From Beijerinckiaceae bacterium (GTDB lineage Bacteria > Pseudomonadota > Alphaproteobacteria > Rhizobiales > Beijerinckiaceae): a DNA stretch of 64,000 nt. The position numbers and the translations under genes are program-made. Below are positions 51,060-64,000 of the stretch, piece after piece. How positions within the stretch are numbered: the first letter of the stretch is position 1; the number at the start of each line of letters is the position of its first letter. The notes beneath the pieces are model-generated. The model did no database searches. It was not told the DNA's origin and was given only the letters and a program-made list of their open reading frames with translations. The stretch is from the NCBI GenBank assembly GCA_027532775.1, contig JAPZTO010000001.1, positions 1-64,000 on the forward strand, written 5' to 3'.

Positions 51060-54000
51060 TCAGTGGATCGGGATGGTGCGGCGGCAGGGCAGGCCCGGCC
51101 CGATGGCCGCGCTGAACTGGCGGATCTCGAACGTGAGCCGGCCTTGCGGGGCACCGAAATCGGCGATCTCCCAAGCGGCGGGGTAGAGCCATTCGGTCTC
51201 GGCGAGCGTGACAACGCGGCGTTCCTCTTCCCCCGCCAGCAGCGCGAGCCGGAATTCCGCGCGATCCTCGCCCAAAGGCACCTCGAACAGGTCCCAGCTG
51301 TCACCGCCCCGCCGTGTCCGCCGGCAGAAGCGGAAGCGGATTCCCGCTGCCTCGCGCCGCGCACGGGGATGGACCGGCGGCAGCGGCCGCAAGGCGAGGC
51401 CTGATGGCGTGGTGGCCAGGTCGAGCGCGTGCGGATCGGCGAGATCGACGCCGGCTCCGATCAGCCGCCAGCGGCCCGGCTGGCCGGGCGTGGCCGCTTC
51501 GGCGCCCAGCGGCAGCACCGCATCGTCGAGCAGGACGATGTCCGCGCCAGCCGGGCAGATGCGCCGAGCCGCCGGCTCGGACATTCCGAGGCCGCGCAGC
51601 AGGCCCGAAAGGCGGAAGCGCCGGGCATCGAGCCGCGTGGCCTCCCTGAAGAGAAGAATCTCGGTCAGCCCGTCGGGCCCCGTCACGGCAAGGGCATTGC
51701 CGCCGGCGAGAACTGCTTCCTCCGGCAGGCTCGCCAGGGTGCCGCCCTCGCAATGCAGGTCGAGCACAGCCTGATGGTCCCAGCGCCAGAGCGGGCCCGG
51801 CGGCAGGGCGGAGAGCGTGCGGCCGAGCCGGGCACCGAGGCCCGCTTCCAGCACCATGCGCGCGCCGCCGCCAGCGAGATCGACGAGCCGGTAAGGGCCG
51901 CCCCAGGGTTCCGCGCGCACGGCAAGGGCGAGCAGGCCCTCGTTACGATCGAGCGGCAATTCGACCAGCCGGGCATGCGGGCGCCCCGGCACGGCCGGCG
52001 GACCCGGCGGCGGGGCGGGCAATGCCGTCGATGGGGGCGCCGCCTCGAGCAGACCCGGCTCATAGAGGCGGGCCTCGACCTCCCGGAACGGCCCATCGAC
52101 AAGGCGGGTCACGATCAGGTCGAGCGGGCCTTCCTCCAGCATCACCCGGAGGCCGTCGCCGGGCTCCAGCGCGAGATAGCGCGGCGAAAGGCGGAACGTC
52201 AGCGTTTCGCGGCCGCACCAGAGATCATGCAGGCGCTGCTCGGCGAGGCCCTGTGCCTGCGCGCGCGGCAGATGCAAAGTCGTGCCCTCTGCCGCCTCGC
52301 GCCGGGTCTGGCCGAGCGGCCTTTCCGCCACCACGGCGGCCGGCTCGAAATCCTGCTCGGATTCGATGAAGCCGAGTGACAGCCGGCGCGGGAGCTCGGA
52401 ATCCGGCTGGCGGATGCGTTCCACGAGCGCACCGCCCTGCGGCGCCGGCACGAGATCCTCGCCGGAGAGCGTGAGGACCGGGCCGACGGGCCGGCCCCGC
52501 ACCACGATCTGCCCGGCGCGGGCATGGAAGCTCAACCCGAAGAGGCGGGCCAGCGGTTCGAGCGCCGCGCGCAGGCCCATCGGCCGATCGATCACATAGC
52601 CATCGACCACACCATCCACCCCCTCGCAATGCGGCGCCGACAGGCCGAAACCGGTGAAGAGCGCGGTGACGAGCGCATCGAGTGGCAGGGCTTCCAGCCG
52701 GCCGTTCAGCCAATGGCCGCGCGCCCAGTTGGCGCCATCGCTCCAGAGGTCGGTCTGGCGCGGGAAGGCCGGAAACGGCCGCGCATCCCAGGCCCAGGGG
52801 GCGATGAAATCTCCACGAACCATGGGCTGGCCGGTGACGGGCGAGACCGGGTTTTCCGGCGTCACGCCCTCGCCGTAACCATCAAGCCAGGCGCCGATCA
52901 GCCGCAGCGGAACGAGGTCGTCCCGCCCGCCCGGCGAGAAGGGCGGCAGGCCCGCCTCGGCCGATTTCGGGTCCGGGAAGAGATGCGGCCCGTTCGCGCC
53001 GAACTGCACCGCCGGGCAGCCGATCTCCGTCAGCAGGACGGGCTTCACGCCGGGCTGCCAGGCCGTCGGGACCGGGTTTTCCACCCCGCCGCTCCGCTCG
53101 TGATGCGGGTTCAGCCACCAGCCGGCGAGATCCTTCGGGCGGTGGATCCACGGCTTGCCATAGGCGCCATCGGTGATCGGCCAACGGTCGCCGGAAGCCC
53201 GTGCGGCCTCGTCGCGATAGAACCAGGCATACGCCTCGCCATCGCTGAGGCTGGCGCGGAGATAAGCCGCATCGGCCGGCCCGCGCGCGAGGGCGGCATC
53301 GGGGTGGTCGCGCCCGGGCCGCCAGTCGGAGAGCGGCGGATAGGCGTCGATCGCCACGGCGTCGATGGCAGGATTAGCCCAGAGCGTATCGAGCGGGAAG
53401 CGGATATCGGCCCCGCCTTCCCGCACCCGGGCGCCATATTCGGTCCAGTCGGCGGCATAGGTCAGCCGCGTTGCCGGGCCGAGCATTGCCCGCACATCCG
53501 CCGCCAGCGCGGCCAGCGCCTCGACAAAGGGAAAGTGCCCGTCCGGGCCGAGCGCATGGGTGAGGCCGACCAGTTCCGAGCCGAGGAGCAATGTATCCAC
53601 CCCGCCGGCAGCCTGCGCCAGCATGGCATGGTGCAGCACCATGCGGCGATAGCCCCAGTCTTCCGGGCCGGCATAGACCACGCGCCCACCCTGCAGCATG
53701 AAATGGTCCGGCCGGGCCGCGCCCATCAGGGCGGCGACCTGCGCGGCGGCGGCAGGCTGGCCCGGCGCAAGGTCAAGCGTGATCCGCCCGCGCCAGGGAT
53801 AGGCGGGCTGGATCCCGCCCGGGCGCGCCGGATCCGGCAGGGCATTGCCGGGCGGAATATCCATCAGCACAAAGGGATGGAGCACCGGCTTCAGCCCGCG
53901 CGCGGCCAGATCGCGCAGGGCAGCGACGAGGCTGTCCTCCGAGGGCGAACCGCCATAGGCCGGCCGGTCGTCGATGCGCGAGACCGGCATGGCGGCTTCC

Positions 54001-54941
54001 CGCGTCAGACCGGCCACCTGCCAGGGCGGGCCGATCATCACCTTGTCGGCCCGTTCGGTGCGCGGCTGGAAACGGCAATGGCCGGCGCGCAGGTCATCCC
54101 CGTACCAGGCCGAAACGAGCGTGACGCGTTCGAGCCGGGGCGCGAGGGCCTGCAGTGTATCGAGAGAGGCTTCCCAGTCGTTGCCGCGGAAGGTCTGTGC
54201 CCGGTTGACGGCACGGCTCGCGCCAAAGCCGAAATCCTCGCGGCGTTCCTCCGGGGCATAGCCGAATTCGGTCGAGCCGGGGATCAGGTTGATGGCGCGG
54301 AGTCGCCCGGCGAGAGGCCCGGCGGCGCAGATCACCTCGAAGCGGAATTGCGGCAGGCGGTTGCCGTAATCGGCCAGCGGGAAGCGCTCGAAGACGAGAT
54401 AGGCGAGGCCGCGATAGGCCGGCAAAGCCGCCCCGCCCTGCTTCGCGGCGATGAGCGGATCGACCGGCTGGTCCTCGTCGCCGGGGTAGAAGCGCCAGGT
54501 CACCTGCCGGAGATCGAGTTCCCGGTCATCGGCCCAGATGCGCCGGACCATGCTGACCGGCCCCTCGCAGAGCCCGATCGCGACATGGGCGAAATAGGTG
54601 TAGCGCGTCGCGCGCGGCTGGCCGGCACTGCCGAGCCCCTTGCCCCCCGCGCCACCCGCGCGCTCGACATGGCGCTCCTCCTCGAATTCGGTGGCCCAGA
54701 TCACCTGCCCGCCGAGCCGGACGCGGCCCCGGATGCGGGGGATCGGCGCGCCTTCCTGCGCGGTGATGCCGGCGAGGGCATCAAGGCGCGGCCCCTCGGT
54801 GACGCGGCCGCCGCCGAGCAAAGCGCGGTCGAGCGGGGCGCCGGCCAGCGCACCGAGCGTGCCGCCGATCATCCCCCCGACAGGGCCGCCCAGCATGGTG
54901 CCGAGGGTGGAGCCAATCATGCGGAACGCGAGCGTGGCCAT
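51060..54941 (-). CDS. GTA gp15: baseplate megatron / tail-fibre protein
   Basis: A 1293-residue tail-tip protein. The Gly-rich N-terminus (MIGSTLGTMLGGPVGGMIGG) could insert in a membrane. A TIM-barrel-like domain (about 430-740, including WADDRELDL upstream and YAADWTEYG, AIDAYPPLSDWRPG within it) is typical of GTA gp15. The C-terminal part is beta-rich phage tail-like. In the R. capsulatus particle this protein forms the central baseplate that penetrates the recipient envelope. It overlaps the peptidase gene by one base (TGATG). The length equals known homologues, so it looks intact. Confidence 0.93.
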   Translation of the reverse strand: MATLAFRMIGSTLGTMLGGPVGGMIGGTLGALAGAPLDRALLGGGRVTEGPRLDALAGITAQEGAPIPRIRGRVRLGGQVIWATEFEEERHVERAGGAGGKGLGSAGQPRATRYTYFAHVAIGLCEGPVSMVRRIWADDRELDLRQVTWRFYPGDEDQPVDPLIAAKQGGAALPAYRGLAYLVFERFPLADYGNRLPQFRFEVICAAGPLAGRLRAINLIPGSTEFGYAPEERREDFGFGASRAVNRAQTFRGNDWEASLDTLQALAPRLERVTLVSAWYGDDLRAGHCRFQPRTERADKVMIGPPWQVAGLTREAAMPVSRIDDRPAYGGSPSEDSLVAALRDLAARGLKPVLHPFVLMDIPPGNALPDPARPGGIQPAYPWRGRITLDLAPGQPAAAAQVAALMGAARPDHFMLQGGRVVYAGPEDWGYRRMVLHHAMLAQAAGGVDTLLLGSELVGLTHALGPDGHFPFVEALAALAADVRAMLGPATRLTYAADWTEYGARVREGGADIRFPLDTLWANPAIDAVAIDAYPPLSDWRPGRDHPDAALARGPADAAYLRASLSDGEAYAWFYRDEAARASGDRWPITDGAYGKPWIHRPKDLAGWWLNPHHERSGGVENPVPTAWQPGVKPVLLTEIGCPAVQFGANGPHLFPDPKSAEAGLPPFSPGGRDDLVPLRLIGAWLDGYGEGVTPENPVSPVTGQPMVRGDFIAPWAWDARPFPAFPRQTDLWSDGANWARGHWLNGRLEALPLDALVTALFTGFGLSAPHCEGVDGVVDGYVIDRPMGLRAALEPLARLFGLSFHARAGQIVVRGRPVGPVLTLSGEDLVPAPQGGALVERIRQPDSELPRRLSLGFIESEQDFEPAAVVAERPLGQTRREAAEGTTLHLPRAQAQGLAEQRLHDLWCGRETLTFRLSPRYLALEPGDGLRVMLEEGPLDLIVTRLVDGPFREVEARLYEPGLLEAAPPSTALPAPPPGPPAVPGRPHARLVELPLDRNEGLLALAVRAEPWGGPYRLVDLAGGGARMVLEAGLGARLGRTLSALPPGPLWRWDHQAVLDLHCEGGTLASLPEEAVLAGGNALAVTGPDGLTEILLFREATRLDARRFRLSGLLRGLGMSEPAARRICPAGADIVLLDDAVLPLGAEAATPGQPGRWRLIGAGVDLADPHALDLATTPSGLALRPLPPVHPRARREAAGIRFRFCRRTRRGGDSWDLFEVPLGEDRAEFRLALLAGEEERRVVTLAETEWLYPAAWEIADFGAPQGRLTFEIRQFSAAIGPGLPCRRTIPIH

Positions 54942-55402
54942 CAGGATCTCCGGTCAGGAAAGAGGAAGCGTCCGGCGAGGCGCCGCCGCCAGGCCGGCAG
55001 CAGCGCGACTTCAGCGACAGCCGCACCGTCATGGGCATGGATGAAGCGGCCGGGCCCGGTGGCGATGCCGCAATGCTTGGCAGGCAGGCCGTCACGCCAG
55101 CGGAATAGCAGTACTTCGCCGGGGGCAAGCAGCCCCGGCCCGGCGGGCAGGAGATGGCGTCCGGCCATGGCGAGCAGCGGATCGCCGCTGCCAGTTTCGG
55201 CCCAGAACGGCGTATAGGCCGGCATCCGGGCGGGTTCCGGCCCGTTCAGGGAGCGCCAGACGCCCCGGATCAGGCCGAGGCAATCACAACCGATGCCGGC
55301 CAGCGATGCCTGATGCGCATAGGGCGTGCCGAGCCAGAGCTGCGCCTCGGCGACAACCCGGGCCGGGTCGCAGGATTGCGCCGCCGTCGTTTGCGGATTC
55401 AT
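54941..55402 (-). CDS. GTA gp14: NlpC/P60-family cell-wall peptidase
   Basis: A 153-residue cysteine peptidase in the tail tip that opens the recipient peptidoglycan. The catalytic cysteine is Cys41 in GIGCDCLGLIRGVW; His110 (LPAKHCGIATG) and His122 are candidate catalytic partners. The ATG at 55402 overlaps the hub gene stop by four bases; longer in-frame sequence upstream belongs to the hub gene. Position between hub and megatron is canonical. Confidence 0.94.
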   Translation of the reverse strand: MNPQTTAAQSCDPARVVAEAQLWLGTPYAHQASLAGIGCDCLGLIRGVWRSLNGPEPARMPAYTPFWAETGSGDPLLAMAGRHLLPAGPGLLAPGEVLLFRWRDGLPAKHCGIATGPGRFIHAHDGAAVAEVALLPAWRRRLAGRFLFPDRRS

Positions 55403-56280
55403 GGCACGAGCGGGCGGCCGAGATGGCGCCCCTCCCCCGGCCGGGCATAAGCCAGCATGGCATCCGCCGGCGGGATATGCGGGAAGCCGCGGAACCGCGC
55501 CGCATTGCCGAAGCGGGCATGGCAGGTCGTCAGGCTCTTGTCGCAGCCGGCATGGACGAGCAGCGTGTCGCCCGGCTCCGGCGCCAGCGGCAGCGCCTGC
55601 CACAGCCGGAGCCAGCCGCCACCGGGGTGATCGCGCACGGCGGCTTCTGCTCCGCCCAGAGCCCCGGTCAGCAGGCGGATCCGGCCACGGGCGAAAAGGC
55701 CGGCCGGTGCCGCCTCCAAAGCCGCGCAGCGCAGGGCAATCGCCGTCGCCTCGGTGATCGTGGCGGCCAGGCGGAAAGGCGGGCCGGAAAGGTCGACCCC
55801 GCAGCGGGTATCGCCCAGTTCGGCATCGCAGGAGCGGGTGTAGCGGCGGCCACGTTCCTCATCGAGCGCGAGAAACGGCAGCCGTGTCTCGGCGAGGAAG
55901 CGGCCATCGACCCGGCGGATCTCGCCGAGGATCGTCACATCCTCGAGGAAATCCAGCGCCGGCGCGCGCCAGTTGACGCGGTAGCGGCGCAACTCGGCGC
56001 CGTCGAACAGCCCGGCGCGGATGGCCCGTTCGGAAAGGCGGTCGCTGTCGAGCACGCCGCGGATCTCGCTGCCCCCGCTGGCGAGGCCGGCGCCCTGTTC
56101 GGAGGCGGTGGTCTCGAAGGCGGCGGCGGGCTCGAAGACATGGCCGCCCGCCTCGAAGGCGCAATCATGATCGGTAAAGGCGAGAACCTCGCCGTCGTGG
56201 CGCGTCAGGAGCCAGGCAAAGCACAGGGTGGCGGTCTCGCCGGAGAGGGCTCCGGCAAGGTCGGACGGCAGGATGCGCAT
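55399..56280 (-). CDS. GTA gp13: tail hub protein with four-cysteine cluster site
   Basis: A 293-residue DUF2163 protein. In the R. capsulatus particle the hub trimer binds an iron-sulfur cluster; the corresponding cysteines are present here as Cys151 and Cys160 (RSCDAELGDTRCGV) and Cys246 and Cys253 (AGCDKSLTTCHARFGN). The N-terminal part (LPSDLAGALSGE, FTDHDC) and the C-terminal FRGFPHIPPADAML match family sequences. All four ligands are intact, which argues that the protein is still under selection. Confidence 0.93.
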   Translation of the reverse strand: MRILPSDLAGALSGETATLCFAWLLTRHDGEVLAFTDHDCAFEAGGHVFEPAAAFETTASEQGAGLASGGSEIRGVLDSDRLSERAIRAGLFDGAELRRYRVNWRAPALDFLEDVTILGEIRRVDGRFLAETRLPFLALDEERGRRYTRSCDAELGDTRCGVDLSGPPFRLAATITEATAIALRCAALEAAPAGLFARGRIRLLTGALGGAEAAVRDHPGGGWLRLWQALPLAPEPGDTLLVHAGCDKSLTTCHARFGNAARFRGFPHIPPADAMLAYARPGEGRHLGRPLVP

Positions 56281-56283
56281 GGG

Positions 56284-56919
56284 TCAGATCCGGATTTCGA
56301 TGAGGGGAATCGAGGGGATGGCACCGGCCTCGAAGGCGGAAAGGTCGATATCGAGCCGGTCGGTATCGAAGCGCACCGGCACGTCGAAGAGGAAGCCGGC
56401 CGTCAGCACGGCGCCGGGCGGCGGCGCCTCGGCGAAGGTCACGAGGCCGCGCGTCGCATCGAGGCTGGCGATACTGGCGGGAAGCTCGGACCCGTCACGG
56501 CCGAGGCGCAGCGAACCGGCCACCGGCTTGGTGATCGGGCGGCGATAGGGCTCGAAAGCACCGCCATAGGTCTTGGCGAGGGCGAAGTCGCGCCGGGTGC
56601 CATCGCCGGTGCCAAGCGGCTGGTCGAACGGGCCCGGTGCGGCATTGCCCGGCGCAGAAGACCAGTCCAGCCGGTCGCGGAAGCGGAAGCCGTGCAGGCG
56701 GCCACGCCGTTCCTCGAAGAACGCGGCCAGTTCGCTCAGGCGGTCAAGGCCGCGCACGCCATAGCCGGCTTCGTAGCGGCGGCGGGCATGGGCCCAGCGC
56801 TGGAGGCGCAGTTCGGCACCGGAGGCGGTGGCAATGATCTCCGTGCGGCGCTCTGGCCCGCCCCGTGCGCCGAGCGCGATATCGAGCGGAAAGCGGATCT
56901 CGTGGAAGGAACCGGCCAT
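56284..56919 (-). CDS. GTA gp12: distal tail protein (DUF2460/TIGR02217)
   Basis: A 211-residue protein that caps the tail tube and joins it to the hub. The opening SFHEIRFPLDIALGARGGPER and the region FFEERRGRLHGFRFRDRLDW are family signatures. Start choice: the ATG at 56919 has AAGG six bases upstream. A GTG at 56931 overlaps the tape-measure stop (GTGA) and is the alternative. It lies three bases from the hub gene. Confidence 0.92.
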   Translation of the reverse strand: MAGSFHEIRFPLDIALGARGGPERRTEIIATASGAELRLQRWAHARRRYEAGYGVRGLDRLSELAAFFEERRGRLHGFRFRDRLDWSSAPGNAAPGPFDQPLGTGDGTRRDFALAKTYGGAFEPYRRPITKPVAGSLRLGRDGSELPASIASLDATRGLVTFAEAPPPGAVLTAGFLFDVPVRFDTDRLDIDLSAFEAGAIPSIPLIEIRI

Positions 56920-56927
56920 GGCCTTGC

Positions 56928-57377
56928 TCACAGGCTGCGCTGGCCGCGCGCCACGGCCCGGGCAAGCGCGGCGCTGACCTGATGTTCCGCGCGCAGGAAC
57001 GAGCCGGCATCCTGCGCATGGACCTGCATCTGGATGATCGGCGCGGGGCTGGCCGGTGCGGCGGAGGGGGCACTCCAGGACGGGGCTCCGCCGAAAAGCC
57101 CGCTCGCGCCCGTTTCCGGGCGAACAAGGCCGGTCAGCCCCGAAAGGCCGGTCTGCAAGGCGGCGTTGAGCCCACCCGCCAGCGCGCCCTCGGCCTGCCG
57201 GAGCGAGAGCCGGAGCAGCTGGTCGCCGAGGCCGCGCATCACCTCGCCGAGGTTGCGGCCCTCGACGATGCCCTCGGCGAGACTGCGGCTCAGGGTCTGG
57301 CCGAACCGGCGGGTCAGGCCATCGAGTTCGGCCATGGATCGCGCCAGCGGGCGGGTGGGGTCATCCGTCTCGAACAT
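56928..57377 (-). CDS. GTA gp11: short tail tape measure protein
   Basis: A 149-residue helical protein (LTRRFGQTLSRSLAEGIVEGRNLGEVMRG...) with an Ala/Gly/Pro-rich second half. GTA tape measures are unusually short because the tail is short, and this one is at the lower end, compatible with a tail of a few tube rings. It begins inside the last codons of the second tail chaperone (17-bp overlap). Function is inferred from position and composition. Confidence 0.8.
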   Translation of the reverse strand: MFETDDPTRPLARSMAELDGLTRRFGQTLSRSLAEGIVEGRNLGEVMRGLGDQLLRLSLRQAEGALAGGLNAALQTGLSGLTGLVRPETGASGLFGGAPSWSAPSAAPASPAPIIQMQVHAQDAGSFLRAEHQVSAALARAVARGQRSL

Positions 57378-57597
57378 GGTTTGTCTCCGGTGGAAAATCG
57401 GGAAATTGCCGCATCAGGGCGTCGAGGGCGGCGCGGTCCGGCGGGGAGGCGGGCGGGCCGAACAGGCCGAGGGCAGCGGCGCGGAATTCGGGCAGGCTCA
57501 TCGCCCAGAAGGCATCGGGGGCAAGCCGCAACCGGCCGAGACCGAAGGCGAGAAGTTCGCGCCAGCGGCTTCCGGCGGCTGCGGCCGGATAGGGTTT
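57361..57597 (-). CDS. GTA gp10.1: second tail-assembly chaperone, probably expressed by -1 frameshift from gp10
   Basis: In the frame -1 to gp10, an open stretch from 57666 to TGA 57361-57363 encodes the DUF2376-like core WRELLAFGLGRLRLAPDAFWAMSL-type sequence (57564 downward) and ends LMRQFPDFPPETNH. This is the expected neighbour between gp10 and the tape measure. No ATG or GTG precedes the core. The only starts are a TTG (57531) and an ATG (57501) within or after it. The ATG would give just 46 residues lacking the conserved half. Shifting at the heptamer 57597-57591 gives a gp10-gp10.1 fusion of about 185 residues, as in lambda gpG-gpT. Confidence 0.65.
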   Translation of the reverse strand, partial: KPYPAAAAGSRWRELLAFGLGRLRLAPDAFWAMSLPEFRAAALGLFGPPASPPDRAALDALMRQFPDFPPETNHVRDG

Positions 57598-57917
57598 GGC
57601 GCGGCCGGCCCTTCCGGCAGCGCGCTCGCGAAGACGGCAGCAATCGCGCTGACCAGCCGTGGCAGATCAGCGGCATCGAGCCTTTCGGCGAGGGCGGAAT
57701 CGGCGATCGGTCGTCCGCCGCCGCGGACCAGCGCGCCGGCCAGCACGATCAGATCCGCCATGGCGAGGCCCCCGCCGGCGAGGCGGCGGCCGAGCGCCTC
57801 CAGCCCCTCCGGGGCAAGCCGGGCCTCGATTTCCGCCAGCGCCTGCAGGGAGAGGCGCAGGACGAGGCGTTCGCCGCCGATCTCGATCGCGGCTTCGGAA
57901 CGATGCGGGTTTGTCAT
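57498..57917 (-). CDS. GTA gp10: tail-assembly chaperone (zero-frame product)
   Basis: A 139-residue protein of the GTA gp10/TAC_11 type: HRSEAAIEIGGERLVLRLSL, then AEIEARLAPEGLEALGRRL and MADLIVLAGALVRGGG. The family core ends near residue 102 (AIAAVFASALPEG), just before the slippery codons 107-109. The remaining 30 residues are Pro/Ser rich and overlap the coding region of gp10.1. This is the layout of tail chaperones made in short and frameshifted long forms. The stop overlaps an ATG of the -1 frame. Confidence 0.87.
   Translation of the reverse strand: MTNPHRSEAAIEIGGERLVLRLSLQALAEIEARLAPEGLEALGRRLAGGGLAMADLIVLAGALVRGGGRPIADSALAERLDAADLPRLVSAIAAVFASALPEGPAAPNPIRPQPPEAAGANFSPSVSAGCGLPPMPSGR
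57591..57597 (-). promoter_or_regulatory. Candidate -1 ribosomal frameshift heptamer A_AAC_CCT
   Basis: On the coding strand the gp10 codons CCA-AAC-CCT contain A AAC CCT, matching the X_XXY_YYZ pattern; slippage re-pairs as AAA and CCC and enters the gp10.1 frame. Two bases later CCGGC-N7-GCCGG can form a stem-loop that could stimulate slippage. Confidence 0.6.
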
Positions 57918-57938
57918 GGTGTCCGATTCCTCGTCGCG

Positions 57939-58349
57939 TCACGCCGGGGTGAAGGCCAGCGCACCGGCACTGTCGAGCTGGATCTCGAACTGCACCTCGC
58001 CGGCATGGTCGCCGCGATATTCGAGCGCGCGGATCTGGAACGGGCCGCTGACAATCCCGAAGCTCGGGATCACCACCTGCCAGTTCCGGACCTGGCCATC
58101 GAAGAAAAGCTGCCGGGCCCGCGCATCGGAGGTTGTGTCGCGGAACAGGCCCTGGCCTTGCAGGCTGGCCCGGCGGATGCCGCCGCCATCGAGCAGTTCC
58201 CGCCAGCGCCCGGCGGATTCGGCATGGGTGATATCGACGGTCTGAGCGTCGAAGACGAGGCGCCGGCTGCGCAATCCGGCGAGGGTGATGAAGCGGCCTG
58301 TGCCGTCATCGACCTTGAGCAGCAGGTCCTTTCCGCTCTGGGCGGCCAT
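57939..58349 (-). CDS. GTA gp9: major tail tube protein
   Basis: A 136-residue TP901-1-type tail tube subunit. The start MAAQSGKDLLLKVDDGTG, the segment TVDITHAESAGRWRELLDG and the late FQIRALEYRGDHAGEVQFEI are family features. It stacks in hexameric rings to form the tail. It is separated by three bases from the tail terminator gene and by 21 bp from gp10. Confidence 0.94.
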   Translation of the reverse strand: MAAQSGKDLLLKVDDGTGRFITLAGLRSRRLVFDAQTVDITHAESAGRWRELLDGGGIRRASLQGQGLFRDTTSDARARQLFFDGQVRNWQVVIPSFGIVSGPFQIRALEYRGDHAGEVQFEIQLDSAGALAFTPA

Positions 58350-58352
58350 GGT

Positions 58353-58754
58353 TCATTCCTCCGGGGTTTCAAGAAAGGCGCGCAGGCGAAGCCGGGCCTC
58401 GCTGCGTCCTTCGTGCGGGTCATGGTCTATGCGGGCCTCGGCGATCCGGACCGAAACGATGCGGTGATGCGGGCTGGCGGGCGGGCTTTCCGCGAGGGCC
58501 AATTCCAGCCCGGCAAGCAAGGCGAGAAGCCCGGCCGTGCCCTCTTCTGCCCGGACGAGCCACAGCGCGAGTTCCACCTCGCTGCCGTCGGGCTCGTCGC
58601 GGCACAGGGCCTCGCCCATCAGCAGAAAGGGCAGGCCGAGGCCGGGCGGCAGGGTTTCGACGATCCGGTCGCCGAACGCGGCAGCGAGGTCGGGCCGGGC
58701 GAGCCAATGGGCGCGGAGCGCGGCTTTCAGCGATGCGATCGGGTGCGGGATCAT
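58353..58754 (-). CDS. GTA gp8: tail terminator protein (DUF3168)
   Basis: A 133-residue protein of the DUF3168 type that ends tail tube growth and joins tail to head. It starts MIPHPIASLKAALRAHW, contains AAFGDRIVETLPPGLGLPFLLMG, and ends in EGRSEARLRLRAFLET. The ATG at 58754 overlaps the gp7 stop by four bases; longer upstream in-frame sequence belongs to gp7 in another frame. Confidence 0.9.
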   Translation of the reverse strand: MIPHPIASLKAALRAHWLARPDLAAAFGDRIVETLPPGLGLPFLLMGEALCRDEPDGSEVELALWLVRAEEGTAGLLALLAGLELALAESPPASPHHRIVSVRIAEARIDHDPHEGRSEARLRLRAFLETPEE

Positions 58755-59092
58755 CCGGTTTCCTCCCGGCACAGGCAGACGAGGTGGCGGCGTGTGCCTG
58801 CCGGGTCGAGCACGGCCCGGATCCGGAAGCGTTGTGCCCCGCGCACGAGGCGCATCCCGGCGGTCACGCCCGGTTGCCAGGCCAGGGTGATGCGGAATTC
58901 GGGCGCGGTCGGCAAAACGGGGCCGGCACGTGGCGGCTTCGGCTCGACCGGCTCGATCCGCGCCCAGACCGGGCCGACGGCCTGCCAGAGCCATTGCCGC
59001 CCGCCGAGCGGGTCAAAAGCGGCAACCGGCATTTCCAGCAGCAGGCGAAGGCGCCGTTCGGCGATGCGCGGCGGGCGATGGCTCCCCTTCAT
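58751..59092 (-). CDS. GTA gp7: head-tail stopper/adaptor
   Basis: A 113-residue beta-rich head-closure protein. Features are LLLEMPVAAFDPLGG, WARIEPVEP and the C-terminal FRIRAVLDPAGTRRHLVCLCREE, matching SPP1 gp16-like stoppers found at this position in GTAs. It overlaps both neighbours by four bases. Identification relies on motif pattern plus gene order. Confidence 0.88.
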   Translation of the reverse strand: MKGSHRPPRIAERRLRLLLEMPVAAFDPLGGRQWLWQAVGPVWARIEPVEPKPPRAGPVLPTAPEFRITLAWQPGVTAGMRLVRGAQRFRIRAVLDPAGTRRHLVCLCREETG

Positions 59093-59664
59093 GGGCGCCC
59101 TCCCAGCCGCGCCCGGCGGAAAGGCCGGAGCAGGGCGCGGATCTGCGGCGGCATGCCGGGCTGGCTCTCGCCGCCCTCGCCGCGATTCTCGTACCAGAGC
59201 GCGACCAGCCGGCGGATGGCGAGGCGGATCTGCGCCGGCACATCGGCCGCGGCCTCGCCATGGCCGAGGCGGAGATCGATCTCGATCCCCGCCGAGGGGC
59301 GGCCCGGCAAGGGCGTGAGCAGGGCCTCGATCACTGGCGGATCCGTGAAAGGCAGCAGCCGGAACGCCGCCGGCGGCAATTCGCTGACATGGCCCTCGCG
59401 ATGGAAGACGCGCCCGCCCCGCACCGCAAGCACAGGCCCGGTGCGGACGGGGATGCGGCCATCGGCGGGCCAGGCATGGCCGATCAGCCGCCAGGTCTGG
59501 CCGAGCAGCACCTGGCCGATCTCGGCCTCGACCATGAGCCGCGCCGCGACGGCGAGGCCGGCGATCAGCTCGTCCTCGGCGGGGTCCTCCACCCGCAGCC
59601 AGAGCCGGGCTTCGGCCAGCGAGACGGGTTCGAGGGCGGGGCCCTCGATCATGATGGGAATCAT
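59089..59664 (-). CDS. GTA gp6: head-tail connector/adaptor
   Basis: A 191-residue helical protein that binds the portal. The N-terminal PVSLAEARLWLRVEDPAEDELIAGL is the common phage connector opening, and the C-terminal IRLAIRRLVALWYENRGE is the family signature helix. The start at 59664 is supported by GAAGGA. It is the first gene after the interruption of the cluster, so it must have its own promoter in 59665-59762 or depend on read-through past an opposing gene. Confidence 0.92.
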   Translation of the reverse strand: MIPIMIEGPALEPVSLAEARLWLRVEDPAEDELIAGLAVAARLMVEAEIGQVLLGQTWRLIGHAWPADGRIPVRTGPVLAVRGGRVFHREGHVSELPPAAFRLLPFTDPPVIEALLTPLPGRPSAGIEIDLRLGHGEAAADVPAQIRLAIRRLVALWYENRGEGGESQPGMPPQIRALLRPFRRARLGGRP

Positions 59665-59762
59665 TCCGTATCCTTCATTCCAGTGTTTGGCCGGCCCGCA
59701 CCCCGGCACGGCCCCGGGAGGGCCGCGATCCTTCGCGCTTGCGCCGGGGCGCGGGCGATGCA

Positions 59763-60587
59763 ATGGTCCGCGGCGTGAAAAAGCCGTTCCGCTCCTCCGC
59801 GCGCGCCTCTGTCGCCTTCTGCGCTGCCCTTGTTCCAGGGTTGATCTGCCTTGCACCGGGCACTGCCCTGGCGCTGGGCGGTCAGGCCGCCAGCCCCGAT
59901 GGCGGGCTGACGACGCATCTCGTCATGGTTCTTTCGAAGCAAGGCAACAAGCACGGCGCCTGCACGGGCACGATCCTCTCATCCGACATCATCCTGACCG
60001 CCGCGCATTGCGTGGCCGGCAACCGGCAGGTTGCCGTGGCCTACAAGGAAGACGGCTCGCATGTGCTGCAGCGGGTGATGGCCCGGGCGATCAATCCCGG
60101 CTTCTCGCCGAAGGCCCGGGTCTCGATCGACCTCGCGCTGATCCGGCTGGACAGCCCCCTGCCCGCGCGGTTCCGGCCGATGGTGCTCGAATCGGATGAT
60201 TCGGGGCATCAGGTCGGCGTGCGCCGTACGATTGCCGGGTTCGGCCTCGCCGCCGACCGGGACGAGGCCAGCGCCGGGGTGCTGCGCAGCGCCACGGTGA
60301 CGGTGCTGCCGCGGCTCTATCCGCGTTTCCTTCGGCTGGGCTACAGCCTCGATGCCGATCTCGGCGATTTCGCCGTCTGCACGGGGGATTCCGGCGGTCC
60401 GGTGCTTGATGGCAGCACGGTCGTCGGCGTCGTCTATGGCCGCGAGAAATTCGGCAATGCGCAGAGTTGCGGCACGACAGCGCAGGCGGTCCGGGTAGCC
60501 CCGCATCGCGCCTGGATCGACCAGGTAGTCCGCGGCTGGGGTGGCCGCAATCTCGCGAGCGGGCGCCCGCTCTCGCTGTCGGATTGA
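59763..60587 (+). CDS. Secreted trypsin-like serine protease inserted within the GTA cluster
   Basis: A 274-residue S1-family protease on the opposite strand to the GTA genes. An N-terminal export signal (basic residues 1-14, hydrophobic to 38, cleavage near ALALG) precedes a complete catalytic triad: His82 (LTAAHCV), Asp123 (VSIDLALI) and Ser210 (CTGDSGGPVL). Cysteines flank both active-site segments. The ATG at 59763 is chosen over an upstream TTG. It separates gp5 from gp6, genes that are normally adjacent. Whether it acts on GTA particles or is an unrelated passenger is unknown. Confidence 0.9.
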   Translation: MVRGVKKPFRSSARASVAFCAALVPGLICLAPGTALALGGQAASPDGGLTTHLVMVLSKQGNKHGACTGTILSSDIILTAAHCVAGNRQVAVAYKEDGSHVLQRVMARAINPGFSPKARVSIDLALIRLDSPLPARFRPMVLESDDSGHQVGVRRTIAGFGLAADRDEASAGVLRSATVTVLPRLYPRFLRLGYSLDADLGDFAVCTGDSGGPVLDGSTVVGVVYGREKFGNAQSCGTTAQAVRVAPHRAWIDQVVRGWGGRNLASGRPLSLSD

Positions 60588-60603
60588 GCGGCGGACCCGG
60601 CGA

Positions 60604-60762
60604 GGCCCCTCACCCGGCGCTTCGCGCCACCCTCTCCCCGCAAGCGGGGCGAGGGGGCAGCGCACAACCGCCTTCGCTTTCCTGAATCAACGCCGCTCCA
60701 GCGTGCTCCCACCTCTCCCCTCGGGGGAGAGGTCGCGAGCGTCAGCGAGCGGGTGAGGGGCC
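60604..60762. repeat. REP/BIME-like composite inverted repeat
   Basis: The ends GGCCCCTCACCCG (60604-60616) and CGGGTGAGGGGCC (60750-60762) are a perfect 13-bp inverted pair. Inside are several strong hairpins: GGCGC-TTC-GCGCC, CCCCGC-AA-GCGGGG, and CCTCTCCCC-TC-GGGGGAGAGG near 60711-60732. The two halves read as related units in opposite orientation, as in bacterial REP doublets. It fills most of the 197 bp between the protease and capsid gene ends, where it may also end transcription from both sides. Confidence 0.75.
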
Positions 60763-60784
60763 GGCTCGCGCGCGGCCCCTGTTC

Positions 60785-61984
60785 TCACGCCCCGAAGCGC
60801 AGCAGCTTGATCGCCCGGAAATCCTGCATGCCGCCGCCGACGCGCTTGGTCGTGTAGAACAGCACATAGGGCTTGGCGGAATACGGGTCCCGCAGCGCGC
60901 GGATGCCCACCCGGTCGAGCACGAGATAGCCGCGCCGGAAATCCCCGAAAGCGATGGCGGTGCTGTTCGCGGCGATATCCGGCATGGCCTCCGCCTCGAT
61001 GACGGGGAAATTGAGGATCGTCGCCTTGCCGCCCAGCAGGCTCGGCGGCGCCCAGATGTAGTTCCCCGTCGTGTCCTTGAAGCGCCGGATCATGCTCTGC
61101 GTCCGGCGGTTCATGACGAAACTGGCATTCTCCCGGTAAACCGAGCGCACCGCATGGGCCAGTTCGATCAGGATGTCGGAGGGGTTGGCCGCCGGGAAGG
61201 CACCGGCCGCGCCCGTGGCGACGGTGCCGATCTGGCCCCAGCTCCACTGGGCATCCGGCACCTGCGGATAGGAGAGGAAGCCGCGCGGCCGGCTGACGCC
61301 GTCGCCCTTCACGAAAGCCTCGCTTTCGGCCGAGGCGAAGGTCAGCTCGATTTCCTCGCCGATCCAGGATTCCACATCCACCGCCGCATCGTCGAGCATG
61401 GCCTGCGTTGCCGCCGGCTGCGCGAAAAGCTCCATCGTCTGGAAACCCAGTTCGGCATAGAGGCCCGGCGTGATGGCGCTGGAGGGCGCGCCGAGGCTGG
61501 CCCAGCCCTGATGCGCGCCTTCGGGCGAGACCGCCTTTTTCAGGCTGGTGCCGGCCAGCGAGCGGACGGAGGCGATGCCGCGGATCGGCGAGAGGCCGGC
61601 CATGCGCGAGAGCACCGCCGCCTCGATGTCCGGCGGCACGAGATAGCCGGCATCCGGGCCGATGGCGCCGTTCAGCGCCTTGGCCTCGACGAGGCGCATG
61701 GGCTCGGTCTGGCCCTTGCGGAGATAGGCGTCGAAGGCGCGCTTGTGCTCGAGCCGTTCGGGCGAGATCGCGCTGCCGGCCCCGGCCAGAGGCGGGCGCT
61801 GGGCATGCAGGCTCAGCCGGTCCAGCTCGCGGCCGATCCGCTCGACCTTTTCCTCGAGCAGGATGTCGGGCGCGGATTTACGCTGGCCCTCGGCGAGGCT
61901 CTCGTCATTGGCCTGGCGGAAGGCCTCGTAGGTTTCCATGATCTTGGTCTCGGGGGCGCGGATCGGGGTTTCGGTCGGTTCCAT
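60785..61984 (-). CDS. GTA gp5: HK97-fold major capsid protein
   Basis: A 399-residue capsid precursor. Residues 1-100 form the charged, helical delta/scaffold domain removed by the prohead protease (LEEKVERIGRELDRLSLHAQ). The HK97 fold follows (AKALNGAIGPDAGYLVPPDIEAAVL; PAATQAMLDDAAVDVESWIGEEI; FVKGDGVSRPRGFLSY). The start at 61984 follows AAAGGACC. The distance to gp4 is 31 bp. It is intact and of normal length. Confidence 0.96.
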   Translation of the reverse strand: MEPTETPIRAPETKIMETYEAFRQANDESLAEGQRKSAPDILLEEKVERIGRELDRLSLHAQRPPLAGAGSAISPERLEHKRAFDAYLRKGQTEPMRLVEAKALNGAIGPDAGYLVPPDIEAAVLSRMAGLSPIRGIASVRSLAGTSLKKAVSPEGAHQGWASLGAPSSAITPGLYAELGFQTMELFAQPAATQAMLDDAAVDVESWIGEEIELTFASAESEAFVKGDGVSRPRGFLSYPQVPDAQWSWGQIGTVATGAAGAFPAANPSDILIELAHAVRSVYRENASFVMNRRTQSMIRRFKDTTGNYIWAPPSLLGGKATILNFPVIEAEAMPDIAANSTAIAFGDFRRGYLVLDRVGIRALRDPYSAKPYVLFYTTKRVGGGMQDFRAIKLLRFGA

Positions 61985-62015
61985 GGCAGGGTCCTTTGGC
62001 GGGAGGGGGCGGCCG

Positions 62016-62600
62016 TCACAGCGGACGGATCGCAGGGAAGGCGGGCAGCGGGCCGGGCAAAGCCTTGACGGCGGTGATCCGGGCCTGCGGCAGCATCGGG
62101 AAGGTGACGAGCGAGATCTCCCAGAGATCCACCTCGTCGAGCCGGCGGAGGCCGGTTTCGGGGTCGCGGCGCTCGCGCTCGGCGCGGTAGCCGATGGAGA
62201 GGCCATCGACGAGGCCGCGCCGCATCAGGCCATGGACCTCGCGGGCGAGCGCCTGGCCGAGATCGAGCCGGCCGGTGACAAGCAGGCCGCGGCCATCCTC
62301 GGCGAGGCGCGTCCACCGCCCGATCGGGCGGGCGGGGTCATGCTGCCAGAGCAGGCGGATGCCGCCCGCACCGCGCCGGGTGAGCGACTGCCGGAACGCG
62401 CCCGGCATCACCACGTCGCGGCCGAGATCCATCACGCCGAACAGGCTCGCATAGCCTTCGAACAGGCCGGAATCCGGCGGGAGGGAAGCCGGGATATCCG
62501 CCCCCTCGGGGGAGAGGGGCCGGGGGCGGATATCCCGCCCGGCCGGCGGAGGGAGGCGCCGGCCGGAAGGGGGAGAAGCGGGTTCGGCGCGGCCTTTCAT
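62016..62600 (-). CDS. GTA gp4: HK97-family prohead protease with an unusual N-terminal extension
   Basis: A 194-residue serine protease that matures the capsid. The family core starts at about residue 45 (GLFEGYASLFGVMDLGRDVVMPGAF) and includes catalytic His87 (LWQHDPARPIG) and Ser135 (GLSIGYRAE). The first 44 residues are Pro/Arg rich and encoded partly by a REP-like palindrome, so the extension looks acquired. The ATG overlaps the upstream small ORF stop. No later start would preserve the core better, because the first internal ATG is at residue 57. Confidence 0.93.
   Translation of the reverse strand: MKGRAEPASPPSGRRLPPPAGRDIRPRPLSPEGADIPASLPPDSGLFEGYASLFGVMDLGRDVVMPGAFRQSLTRRGAGGIRLLWQHDPARPIGRWTRLAEDGRGLLVTGRLDLGQALAREVHGLMRRGLVDGLSIGYRAERERRDPETGLRRLDEVDLWEISLVTFPMLPQARITAVKALPGPLPAFPAIRPL
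62491..62536. repeat. REP-like palindrome inside the prohead protease gene
   Basis: GGGATATCCGCCCCC (62491-62505) and GGGGGCGGATATCCC (62522-62536) are exact inverse copies. The loop contains CTCGGGGGAGAGG, the same motif as the core hairpin of the intergenic element at 60604-60762. It is translated in frame within the N-terminal extension (RDIRPRPLSPEGADIP). Confidence 0.8.
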
Positions 62601-62782
62601 GCGCGCGGCCTTCCGCGCGGGTCACGGCGGGCTGCCGGGTCGATCCGGGTGATGCGGCCCTTGATCTCCGGTGCCGGCGGCGCCTTGTTGCCCGTGGCCT
62701 TGCCGGGCGGCGGCTGGAACCGCGCCAGCAGGGCGAAGAAGCGGCGGAACAGGGCGGCGGCGTCAGGCGTCCGGCGGGTCAT
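62597..62782 (-). CDS. Small basic GTA-cluster protein of unknown function
   Basis: A 61-residue ORF starting MTRRTPDAA, with a helical segment (LFRRFFALLARFQ) and a very basic Pro/Arg tail. ATG at 62782 has GGAG seven bases upstream and lies within the end of the preceding membrane ORF; its stop overlaps the gp4 start (ATGA). Chained overlaps on both sides are the main reason to believe that it is expressed. I do not recognise the family. Confidence 0.55.
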   Translation of the reverse strand: MTRRTPDAAALFRRFFALLARFQPPPGKATGNKAPPAPEIKGRITRIDPAARRDPRGRPRA

Positions 62783-62966
62783 TGTCATCTCCGTAGCGGG
62801 TATTGAACCGGGCCAGTTCGCGCAGGAACGCATCGAACCGGCGATGGGCGGCGGCGATATCCGCCAGGCTGCGGGCCAGCAGCGCCGAGGCGCCGGCGGC
62901 CCAGAGGAAGAGGGCGAGATGGGCGAGATCGCCCCGCTCGAGAAAGGCGGCGAGGACTTCGCTCAT
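62763..62966 (-). CDS. Small membrane protein at the GTA gp3.5 position
   Basis: A 67-residue protein with one hydrophobic helix (LALFLWAAGASALLARSLADIAA, about 17-39) and an acidic C-terminus (YGDDNDPPDA). R. capsulatus GTA has a small essential ORF (g3.5) between portal and protease, and this ORF occupies that place. Its ATG overlaps the portal stop by four bases. Confidence 0.7.
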   Translation of the reverse strand: MSEVLAAFLERGDLAHLALFLWAAGASALLARSLADIAAAHRRFDAFLRELARFNTRYGDDNDPPDA

Positions 62967-64000
62967 GCGGGGTTGGAAGAACTTGCGGGGTTGAAAGAAC
63001 TTGCGGGGCCGGAAGAACGTGCGGGGTTGGCCGGGCGCGCCTGCCGGCCATAGCCGAGCGCCTCGCGCTTCTCGTCATCGCTGAGGAAGGGCGCGGCCGA
63101 GACGCGGCGCCAGAGCGCCTCGCGTTCTTCCGCCAGCGCCTCGATGGCATCGAGATCGGGCCGGAAGCGCAACAGCCCGCCTTCCAGCGGCTGCAACCAG
63201 TGCGCGAAGTCCGCCTGCATTCTCTGCACCATGGGCAGCACGGTCAGGCGCAACAGCGCGCGGTTCGCCTCGGCATAGTTCGCGTAGGTATTGTCGCCCG
63301 GCAGGCCGAGCAGCATCGGCGGCACGCCGAAAGCGAGCGCGATTTCCCGCGCCGCGCCGGCCTGCGCCGCATGGAAATCCATGTCGCGCGGGCTGAGCGA
63401 GAGCGGCTTCCAGTCCAGCCCGCCCTCGAGCAGGATCGGCCTTCCCGCATTGCCCGCGCCCTGGAAGGCGGATTCCAGCTCGTCGCGCAGGCGGTCGAAC
63501 TGGGTTTCCGTCATGCTGTCGGACGCGGCATAGACGAGCGCGCCCGAGGGCCGGGCGGAATTGTCGAGCAACGCCTTGTTCCAGCGATGGGCCGCCTCGT
63601 GCATGGCGAGCGCGGTTTCCGCCGCGGCCAGCGGCGCAAAGCCGAGCTGGTCATTCAGCGGGTCGAACAGACGGATATGCAGCAGGTCGCCCGTGCCATC
63701 CGGGCCCGCCGGGAAGCGGATCGCCGTCCCGCCGGCGGCATAATCCCAGGCGACCGGCCAGCCATCCGGGCCGGGCACGAGGCTCAGCCGGTCCGGCCGC
63801 AGCGCATGGAGCGCGAGTGGCCCGGCATGGCCGGGGATTCGGGCAACATAGCCATTGCCCGAGAGCAGGAGATGGCCATAAAGCGCCTCGAACAGGTCGG
63901 TGCCGCTGGCCGCCGGATTGGGCCGTTCCAGCAGCCGGGCCAGCGGATGGTCCGGCGCCTCGCGGCCATCGATCAGCAAGGTCCAGCTGATGCTCGCCGC
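62963..64000 (-). CDS. GTA gp3: portal protein, 5' end off the window
   Basis: The frame is open from the window edge, giving at least 345 residues of a HK97-type portal. Recognisable parts are DLFEALYGHLLLSGNGYVARI, LLHIRLFDPLNDQLGFAPL, ALAFGVPPMLLGLPGDNTYANYAEANRALL, and a C-terminal helix FLSDDEKREALGYG. The last 20 residues are a low-complexity tail (NPASS-type) encoded by an 18-bp tandem repeat. The portal forms the dodecameric DNA gate. The N-terminus, and the terminase genes expected before it, are outside the window. Confidence 0.94.
   Translation of the reverse strand, partial: AASISWTLLIDGREAPDHPLARLLERPNPAASGTDLFEALYGHLLLSGNGYVARIPGHAGPLALHALRPDRLSLVPGPDGWPVAWDYAAGGTAIRFPAGPDGTGDLLHIRLFDPLNDQLGFAPLAAAETALAMHEAAHRWNKALLDNSARPSGALVYAASDSMTETQFDRLRDELESAFQGAGNAGRPILLEGGLDWKPLSLSPRDMDFHAAQAGAAREIALAFGVPPMLLGLPGDNTYANYAEANRALLRLTVLPMVQRMQADFAHWLQPLEGGLLRFRPDLDAIEALAEEREALWRRVSAAPFLSDDEKREALGYGRQARPANPARSSGPASSFNPASSSNPA
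62967..63029. repeat. 18-bp tandem repeat at the 3' end of the portal gene
   Basis: Three and a half units of GCGGGGTTGGAAGAACTT and variants (starting 62967, 62985, 63003, 63021) encode six-residue steps in the portal C-terminal tail (SSNPAS, SFNPAS and so on, read on the minus strand). The repeat is in frame, so copy-number change only lengthens the tail. Confidence 0.85.

Follow-up and report, generated by a model that had tools for sequence, protein, structure and literature searches.

Programmed −1 frameshifting as the probable route to the second tail chaperone of a Beijerinckiaceae GTA cluster

Introduction

How is the second of two overlapping tail chaperone genes in a GTA cluster translated when no start codon precedes its conserved domain? 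The question is raised by g10 and g10.1, on the minus strand of a 64,000-nucleotide stretch of Beijerinckiaceae DNA (contig JAPZTO010000001.1, positions 1 to 64,000; hereafter the window, to which all window coordinates refer). Programmed −1 frameshifting of tail chaperones is an already known phage device, on which Xu, Hendrix and Duda reportedly published a study in 2004. Its use in lambda (gpG/gpGT) and in the tail assembly chaperones of other phages is covered in the accessible part of a review (PMC5009743). The original prediction for this locus was that the GTA pair is a domesticated version of the lambda G/GT system. From comparative evidence, we consider programmed −1 frameshifting to be the best explanation of g10/g10.1 in the window, with a probability that we put at about 0.88.

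Results

The GTA cluster and its overlapping chaperone genes

The minus strand from 51060 to 63979 carries a GTA head–tail cluster, recognized through Pfam matches to portal, prohead protease, capsid, connector, g9 tail tube, DUF2460 (g12), and hub (g13) domains, as well as GTA_TIM and Rcc01698_C matches in g15. With gene numbers (g3, g4, and so on) given from order and domain, the cluster shows RcGTA-like synteny: g3 portal, g4 protease, g5 capsid, g9, g10, g12, g13, and g15 are all found. The g10 and g10.1 genes are placed between the tail-tube gene g9 upstream (major tail protein, Phage_tail_2, PF06199; 57939..58349, minus strand) and g11 downstream (56928..57377, minus strand), an ORF without a Pfam match that is identified from its tape-measure position. 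The ATG of g11 overlaps the end of g10.1, and the protein at this tape-measure position is just 149 aa long.

The g10 gene (57498..57917, minus strand) is the frame 0 ORF, encoding 139 aa of tail assembly chaperone 1 (gp10), and matches Phage_TAC_11 “GTA-gp10” (PF11836, E 2.2e-13). The stop-to-stop ORF of g10.1 (57361..57666, minus strand) matches Phage_TAC_6 (E 4.4e-15) over ORF residues 34 to 90 (57397..57567, minus strand), corresponding to profile positions 2 to 57 of 58; we refer to this stretch as the core. As originally described, the two ORFs (57917-57498 and 57666-57361) overlap, and g10.1, open from 57666, is in the −1 frame relative to g10.

Structure prediction for gp10 gave a confident model (pLDDT 88.7) with a weak resemblance to the HK97 tail chaperone 2ob9. 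Searches with gp10 found no homologue in the phage collection at E 0.01 and no meaningful sequence match in the PDB, and a fold search of the PDB with a model of the gp10-gp10.1 fusion returned none; because gp10 rows were misaligned in the alignment behind that model, the fusion model and its fold searches carry little weight.

A slippery heptamer and no upstream start codon in the window

The g10 codons CCA AAC CCT contain the heptamer A_AAC_CCT (57591..57597, minus strand), which fits X_XXY_YYZ in slip phase, just as predicted. This sequence, in which Y is C, satisfies the formal pattern, and we know of no measured example of it. By arithmetic from the sequence, a slip at this site would join 109 residues of gp10 to 76 of g10.1, giving the 185 residues proposed originally, with the g10.1 share (76 codons plus TGA, −1 frame) occupying 57361..57591 on the minus strand. 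The prediction had also put the heptamer just after the end of the gp10 core; g10 itself does not end there, running on for 30 more codons in frame 0.

Within the 60 nt before the g10.1 core, including the stretch from heptamer to core, the −1 frame of the window has no ATG, GTG, TTG, CTG, or ATH codon, in agreement with the claim that the core lacks a preceding ATG or GTG. The earliest ATG, GTG, or TTG of the g10.1 frame is a TTG at 57531, which lies within the core.

Slip-phase heptamers recur among relatives

To place the window among its relatives, we assembled a sample of g10/g10.1 junctions. A genome search with Phage_TAC_6 gave matches in 86 of 149 genomes of the family, 156 of 249 of the order, and 45 of 385 of the class, a subset of which was fetched. 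Combined with a DNA search of relatives and the fetched regions, these matches yielded 227 loci and 218 g10/g10.1 pairs (the other nine loci being eight side hits of the DNA search and L106). Removal of four repeats of the same loci left 214 pairs, our anonymous-genome sample, with g10.1 in the −1 frame in 201. To these we added the best 80 named genome loci and the best 80 viral contigs, each from a longer list, and four phage records, which contributed 163 pairs from 164 loci. After identical junctions were removed from the pooled 377 pairs, 348 nonredundant junctions from genomes, viral contigs, and phage records remained; g10.1 is in the −1 frame in 326 of them and not in the other 22.

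Across the 201 −1-frame loci of the anonymous sample, X_XXY_YYZ heptamers fall overwhelmingly into the slip phase, with 154 there and only 15 and 14 in the remaining two. Of these 154, 18 are TTTCCCT, which occur because the F-P-W of the core is conserved; 136 remain without them. Three slip sites recur among the 326 loci: AAACCCT (92), CCCTTTN (42, with sites at the core counted), and GGGAAAN (16). Some CCCTTTC sites at the core may be a reflection of conserved P-F. The GGGAAAN loci comprise 13 with GGGAAAG, the heptamer of lambda, and three with GGGAAAC, and in 9 of the 16 a frame-0 stop follows immediately.

Heptamer type differs among lineages, and many lineages have none. In named loci of Phyllobacterium, Nitratireductor, Paramesorhizobium, Ochrobactrum, and Brucella species, AAACCCT is followed by an immediate stop; named loci of Devosia, Rhodopseudomonas, and Tardiphaga have an ATG or GTG ahead of the core and no heptamer. 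In the window’s genus, all 11 pairs found have C_CCT in slip phase, as A_AAC_CCT in four, G_GGC_CCT in one, G_GAC_CCT in two, and N_CGC_CCT in four; the CGC CCT of these last four does not match X_XXY_YYZ. A GTG is in reach of the core in 2 of the 11 (L003 and L009) and an ATG in none. Two congeners, L133 and L006, have the same heptamer, the same frame, and the same absence of a start as the window; in L133, the site reads AAC CCT TAG, with no ATG, GTG, TTG, or CTG.

REP-like palindromic inserts (of the type CTCCCTCTCC...GGGAGAGGGCTGGGGTGAGGG) occur in the g10/g10.1 junction of L061, L179, L201, L268, and L269, in several lineages including Kaistia.

Heptamers versus start codons

We scored a start as an in-frame ATG or GTG within 60 nt of the core (TTG codons overlapping a TGA were not scored) and counted AAACCCT, CCCTTTN, and GGGAAAN as upstream heptamers. 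Of 131 loci among the 326 with an upstream heptamer, 107 have no ATG or GTG and 24 have one; of the 176 heptamer-free loci, 117 have one and 59 do not; and the 19 further loci with CCCTTTN at the core itself have none (0/19). The opposition has a Fisher p of 1.6e-17 in the pooled sample, and of 3e-4, 2e-7, and 2e-10 in the anonymous, named, and viral samples, respectively, all uncorrected for kinship. On a FastTree tree the direction persists: 12 kinship-independent pairs on supported branches divide into 5.1 opposite, 0.4 same, and 6.6 with no difference (median p 0.07); with relaxed sites counted as signals, eight independent pairs give 4.0 opposite and 1.2 same (median p 0.375). After correction for kinship, the opposition in these sequences is thus suggestive only. 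The comparison of alphaproteobacterial GTA junctions that the original prediction called for supports it: a slip-phase heptamer recurs, and the start is missing in most upstream-heptamer loci (107/131). Its limit is that many other lineages start at ATG or GTG.

A relaxed NNC_CCT stands in slip phase in 49 of the 59 loci that lack both a heptamer and an ATG/GTG, and is absent from the other 10; within the window’s family, it is present in 32 of 36 such loci. On a rough tree, the two traits, frameshift signal and separate start codon, change 46 and 48 times.

These counts bear on the strongest rival to frameshifting, in which g10.1 is a separate product of ribosomes that reinitiate after g10 at a nonstandard or overlapping start, aided by the SD-like sequence described below, which would fit such a role. 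In many relatives, the named Devosia, Rhodopseudomonas, and Tardiphaga loci among them, an ATG or GTG does stand a short way ahead of the core, and it often overlaps the g10 stop (as ATGA or GTGA); 117 of the 326 loci have such a start and no heptamer; and even L003, the closest relative of the window, has a GTG at the core, although it keeps the heptamer. However, the start-codon loci mostly lack a heptamer (117/141), and 41 of the 107 upstream-heptamer loci without ATG or GTG, the window included, have neither an NTG nor an ATH in frame over the 60 nt that precede the core. In 33 others there is a TTG, but just as part of an overlap with a TGA. Since a TTG or CTG spanning the stop of g10 arises automatically from CCT TGA or NTGA, it is not independent evidence. 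We therefore regard reinitiation in the window as improbable.

An SD-like sequence upstream of the slip site

A candidate frameshift stimulator, the SD-like GGAAGGG (57609..57615, minus strand), lies 11 nt upstream of the window’s heptamer, with an anti-SD duplex energy of −6.2 kcal/mol (anti-SD windows ending 10–11 nt upstream). For every site type in the anonymous sample, the SD-like signal is at its strongest in windows that end 6–12 nt upstream. In the pooled sample (three loci skipped), we compared the best window ending 4–16 nt upstream with random places in the same g10. Among loci without ATG or GTG, the energies (in kcal/mol) were −9.6 versus −4.0 in the control for CCCTTTN (37/37 at −5 or below), −7.9 versus −3.8 for GGGAAAN (14/15), −6.1 versus −3.8 for AAACCCT (46/72), and −7.1 versus −4.1 for relaxed NNC_CCT (37/49). 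The SD-like signal is equally strong in AAACCCT loci that do have ATG or GTG (−7.2, n = 18). Because lineages with start codons also show an SD-like excess at the start, albeit a weaker one (−5.5 versus −4.2, n = 116), an SD-like sequence alone is no proof of frameshifting.

A conserved motif, and no supported structure, downstream

Structured RNA on the 3′ side is common at −1 frameshift sites, though not universal. The original prediction had pointed to a CCGGC/GCCGG stem directly after the heptamer; this hairpin is present (57572..57588, minus strand; arms 57588-57584 and 57576-57572), but its energy is no better than that of shuffled sequence, and we rejected it as a stimulator. Measured against shuffles, the downstream fold of the window has z scores of −0.08 (30 nt), 0.39 (40 nt), and −1.3 (50 and 60 nt), and no stable structure emerged from the downstream folds of the 92 AAACCCT loci (mean z −0.07). 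As an accessory feature, such structure can be absent without excluding a frameshift.

In many Hyphomicrobiales loci, what is conserved beyond the slip site is a linear motif, GCCGCAG, which in the window (57579..57585, minus strand) starts 5 nt downstream of the heptamer and is kept at the nucleotide level in relatives. Of the 92 AAACCCT loci, 55 have CCGCAG and 15 have CCGCGG at +7 to +12; the neighboring sequence has 12 CCGCAG in 43,382 nt. Protein coding as its only role is rejected, because 36 of the 47 loci in which a frame-0 stop precedes the motif still have CCGCAG or CCGCGG, and because 53 of 67 loci of the window’s family use GCA for the second Ala, versus 177 of 2424 in the background. 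As a general account, an ordinary SD for a later start is likewise rejected, many motif loci having no start after it.

SD-like binding is weaker in loci with the motif (−5.8, n = 70) than in those without it (−8.1, n = 22; p 0.0007, uncorrected for kinship), as if the downstream motif and the upstream SD-like sequence could replace each other. One tentative and rather doubtful reading of these patterns is that GCCGCAG may stimulate −1 frameshifting from the 3′ side in a sequence-specific way, without RNA structure, and may be able to replace a strong upstream SD; if so, the related CGC_CCT loci would slip with the Pro codon alone re-pairing. The motif might act via rRNA pairing. GCCGCAG is complementary to the first seven letters of CCUGCGGC, a helix-45 stretch near the 16S rRNA 3′ end (with the partner of the first letter in the next base), and CCUGCGG in the 16S 3′ region, to which the motif is complementary, belongs to a sequence confirmed in three genomes of the window’s family. 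The exact 16S 3′ pattern was found in three of six genomes tried, one of them of the window’s genus, and was absent when searched for in the window’s own assembly. Since the helix-45 region is structured within the ribosome, we hold this pairing as a mere possibility.

A natural fusion, and selection on the −1 frame

In Pseudochelatococcus lubricantis (L275:1156-1689), gp10 and gp10.1 form a single in-frame ORF with both Pfam domains, with the same junction as L116.

Comparison of the window with L133 gives dN 0.009 and dS 0.41 for g10, and dN 0.10 and dS 0.23 for the −1-frame part; over the 93 nt that directly follow the slip, dN and dS are 0.11 and 0.30 in the −1 frame, and 0.20 and 0.02 in the +1 frame. 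In the tail shared with L003, the values (dN/dS) are 0.22/0.26 in frame 0 and 0.20/0.30 in frame −1, which does not clearly separate the frames.

These rates matter for a second rival, namely that the window’s copy has lost g10.1 expression and that the cluster is decaying. The standard start is indeed absent, g10 carries its 30-codon tail past the heptamer, and g10.1 evolves faster than g10 (dN/dS of about 0.45 versus 0.02 against L133). However, dN stays below dS in the −1 frame, the remaining head and tail genes of the cluster have long open frames with Pfam matches, and L133 and L006 share the heptamer, the frame, and the absent start, making decay very improbable. Less probable still is a −1 product of transcriptional slippage or an internal g10.1 start at TTG 57531, both known routes in bacteria, as the slip sites have only short runs around them (the longest measuring 3 or 4 in 119 of 126 slip-site loci without ATG or GTG) and the internal start would remove the first part of the TAC_6 domain.

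Discussion

The reading frames, missing start codons, conserved signals, and natural fusion are direct observations, and programmed −1 frameshifting is the explanation that we favor for them. On this explanation, most ribosomes would read to g10’s own stop and make gp10, and a minority would slip back a base at A_AAC_CCT, where the tRNAs for Asn and Pro would re-pair with AAA and CCC, and then read the −1 frame to produce a 185-residue gp10-gp10.1 fusion. The GGAAGGG sequence behind the decoding site would aid this putative slip, and GCCGCAG ahead of it perhaps too; the rate of slippage and the part played by each stimulator are matters that we infer. By analogy with lambda gpG/gpGT, gp10 may form a coat on gp11, the short tape measure, and the g10.1 domain may recruit the tail-tube protein gp9, both being presumed partners.

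If the frameshift is real, alphaproteobacterial GTAs beyond the best-studied model retain a phage recoding device that still works. Without selection, signals of this kind should be lost over time, so their persistence would support the view that these GTAs are functional. The many changes between frameshift and start codon would also allow a test of whether a fused or a free g10.1 domain makes a difference to short tails. There is also a practical consequence, in that annotation easily mis-starts g10.1, as four phage records show: their annotated chaperone genes begin inside the TAC_6 core (match from 2501), at 2537 in L230, 2516 in L231, and 2519 in both L232 and L233, likely an artifact of the missing start codon.

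In the literature searched, mostly without subscription papers and in part through accessible sections, we found no report of a frameshift at GTA g10/g10.1 in alphaproteobacteria, and the term “frameshift” is absent from the accessible main texts on RcGTA (PMC11409702, PMC9765227). That literature seems to contain no report of frameshifting in GTAs, of AAACCCT as a slip site, or of the GCCGCAG motif; the motif text match within it covered AAACCC and CCCTTT/CCCUUU only.

Among the closest known parallels is lambda gpG/gpGT, in which tail-tube and tape-measure genes likewise flank a pair of overlapping chaperone ORFs, the second in the −1 frame without a start and the first with a heptamer near its end. 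Unlike the lambda system, the window has AAACCCT as its heptamer, its proteins belong to Pfam TAC_11 and TAC_6, and its candidate stimulators are an SD-like sequence and the linear GCCGCAG, with no supported downstream structure.

Descent from a phage system, as originally proposed, gains support from two sequenced phages with the same gene order that carry GGGAAAC at the end of their g10 counterpart. In MW202777 no start lies ahead of the core, and in OP947159 no ATG, GTG, or TTG follows the heptamer, a GTG lying 54 nt before it. Because phages with this gene order carry such a site, the device was probably inherited from phages. In phiCbK-like Caulobacter phages, the accessible text describes a programmed −1 frameshift of the pre-tape-measure chaperone gp93/gp94, with the heptamer GGGAAAC in Colossus and AAAAAAC in phiCbK (PMC3556154). 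Unlike the GTA, the hosts of gp93/gp94 are large phages with other heptamers; phages L230 and L231 of our sample share GGGAAAC with Colossus. Within GTAs themselves, RcGTA g10 is described as tail chaperone 1 and g10.5 as tail chaperone 2 in the accessible part of one account (PMC11409702). We infer that g10.5 is the same gene as g10.1, and, as far as the accessible texts go, the pair in the window resembles RcGTA g10 and g10.1/g10.5 in belonging to the same families and occupying the same place in the cluster (PMC11409702, PMC9765227).
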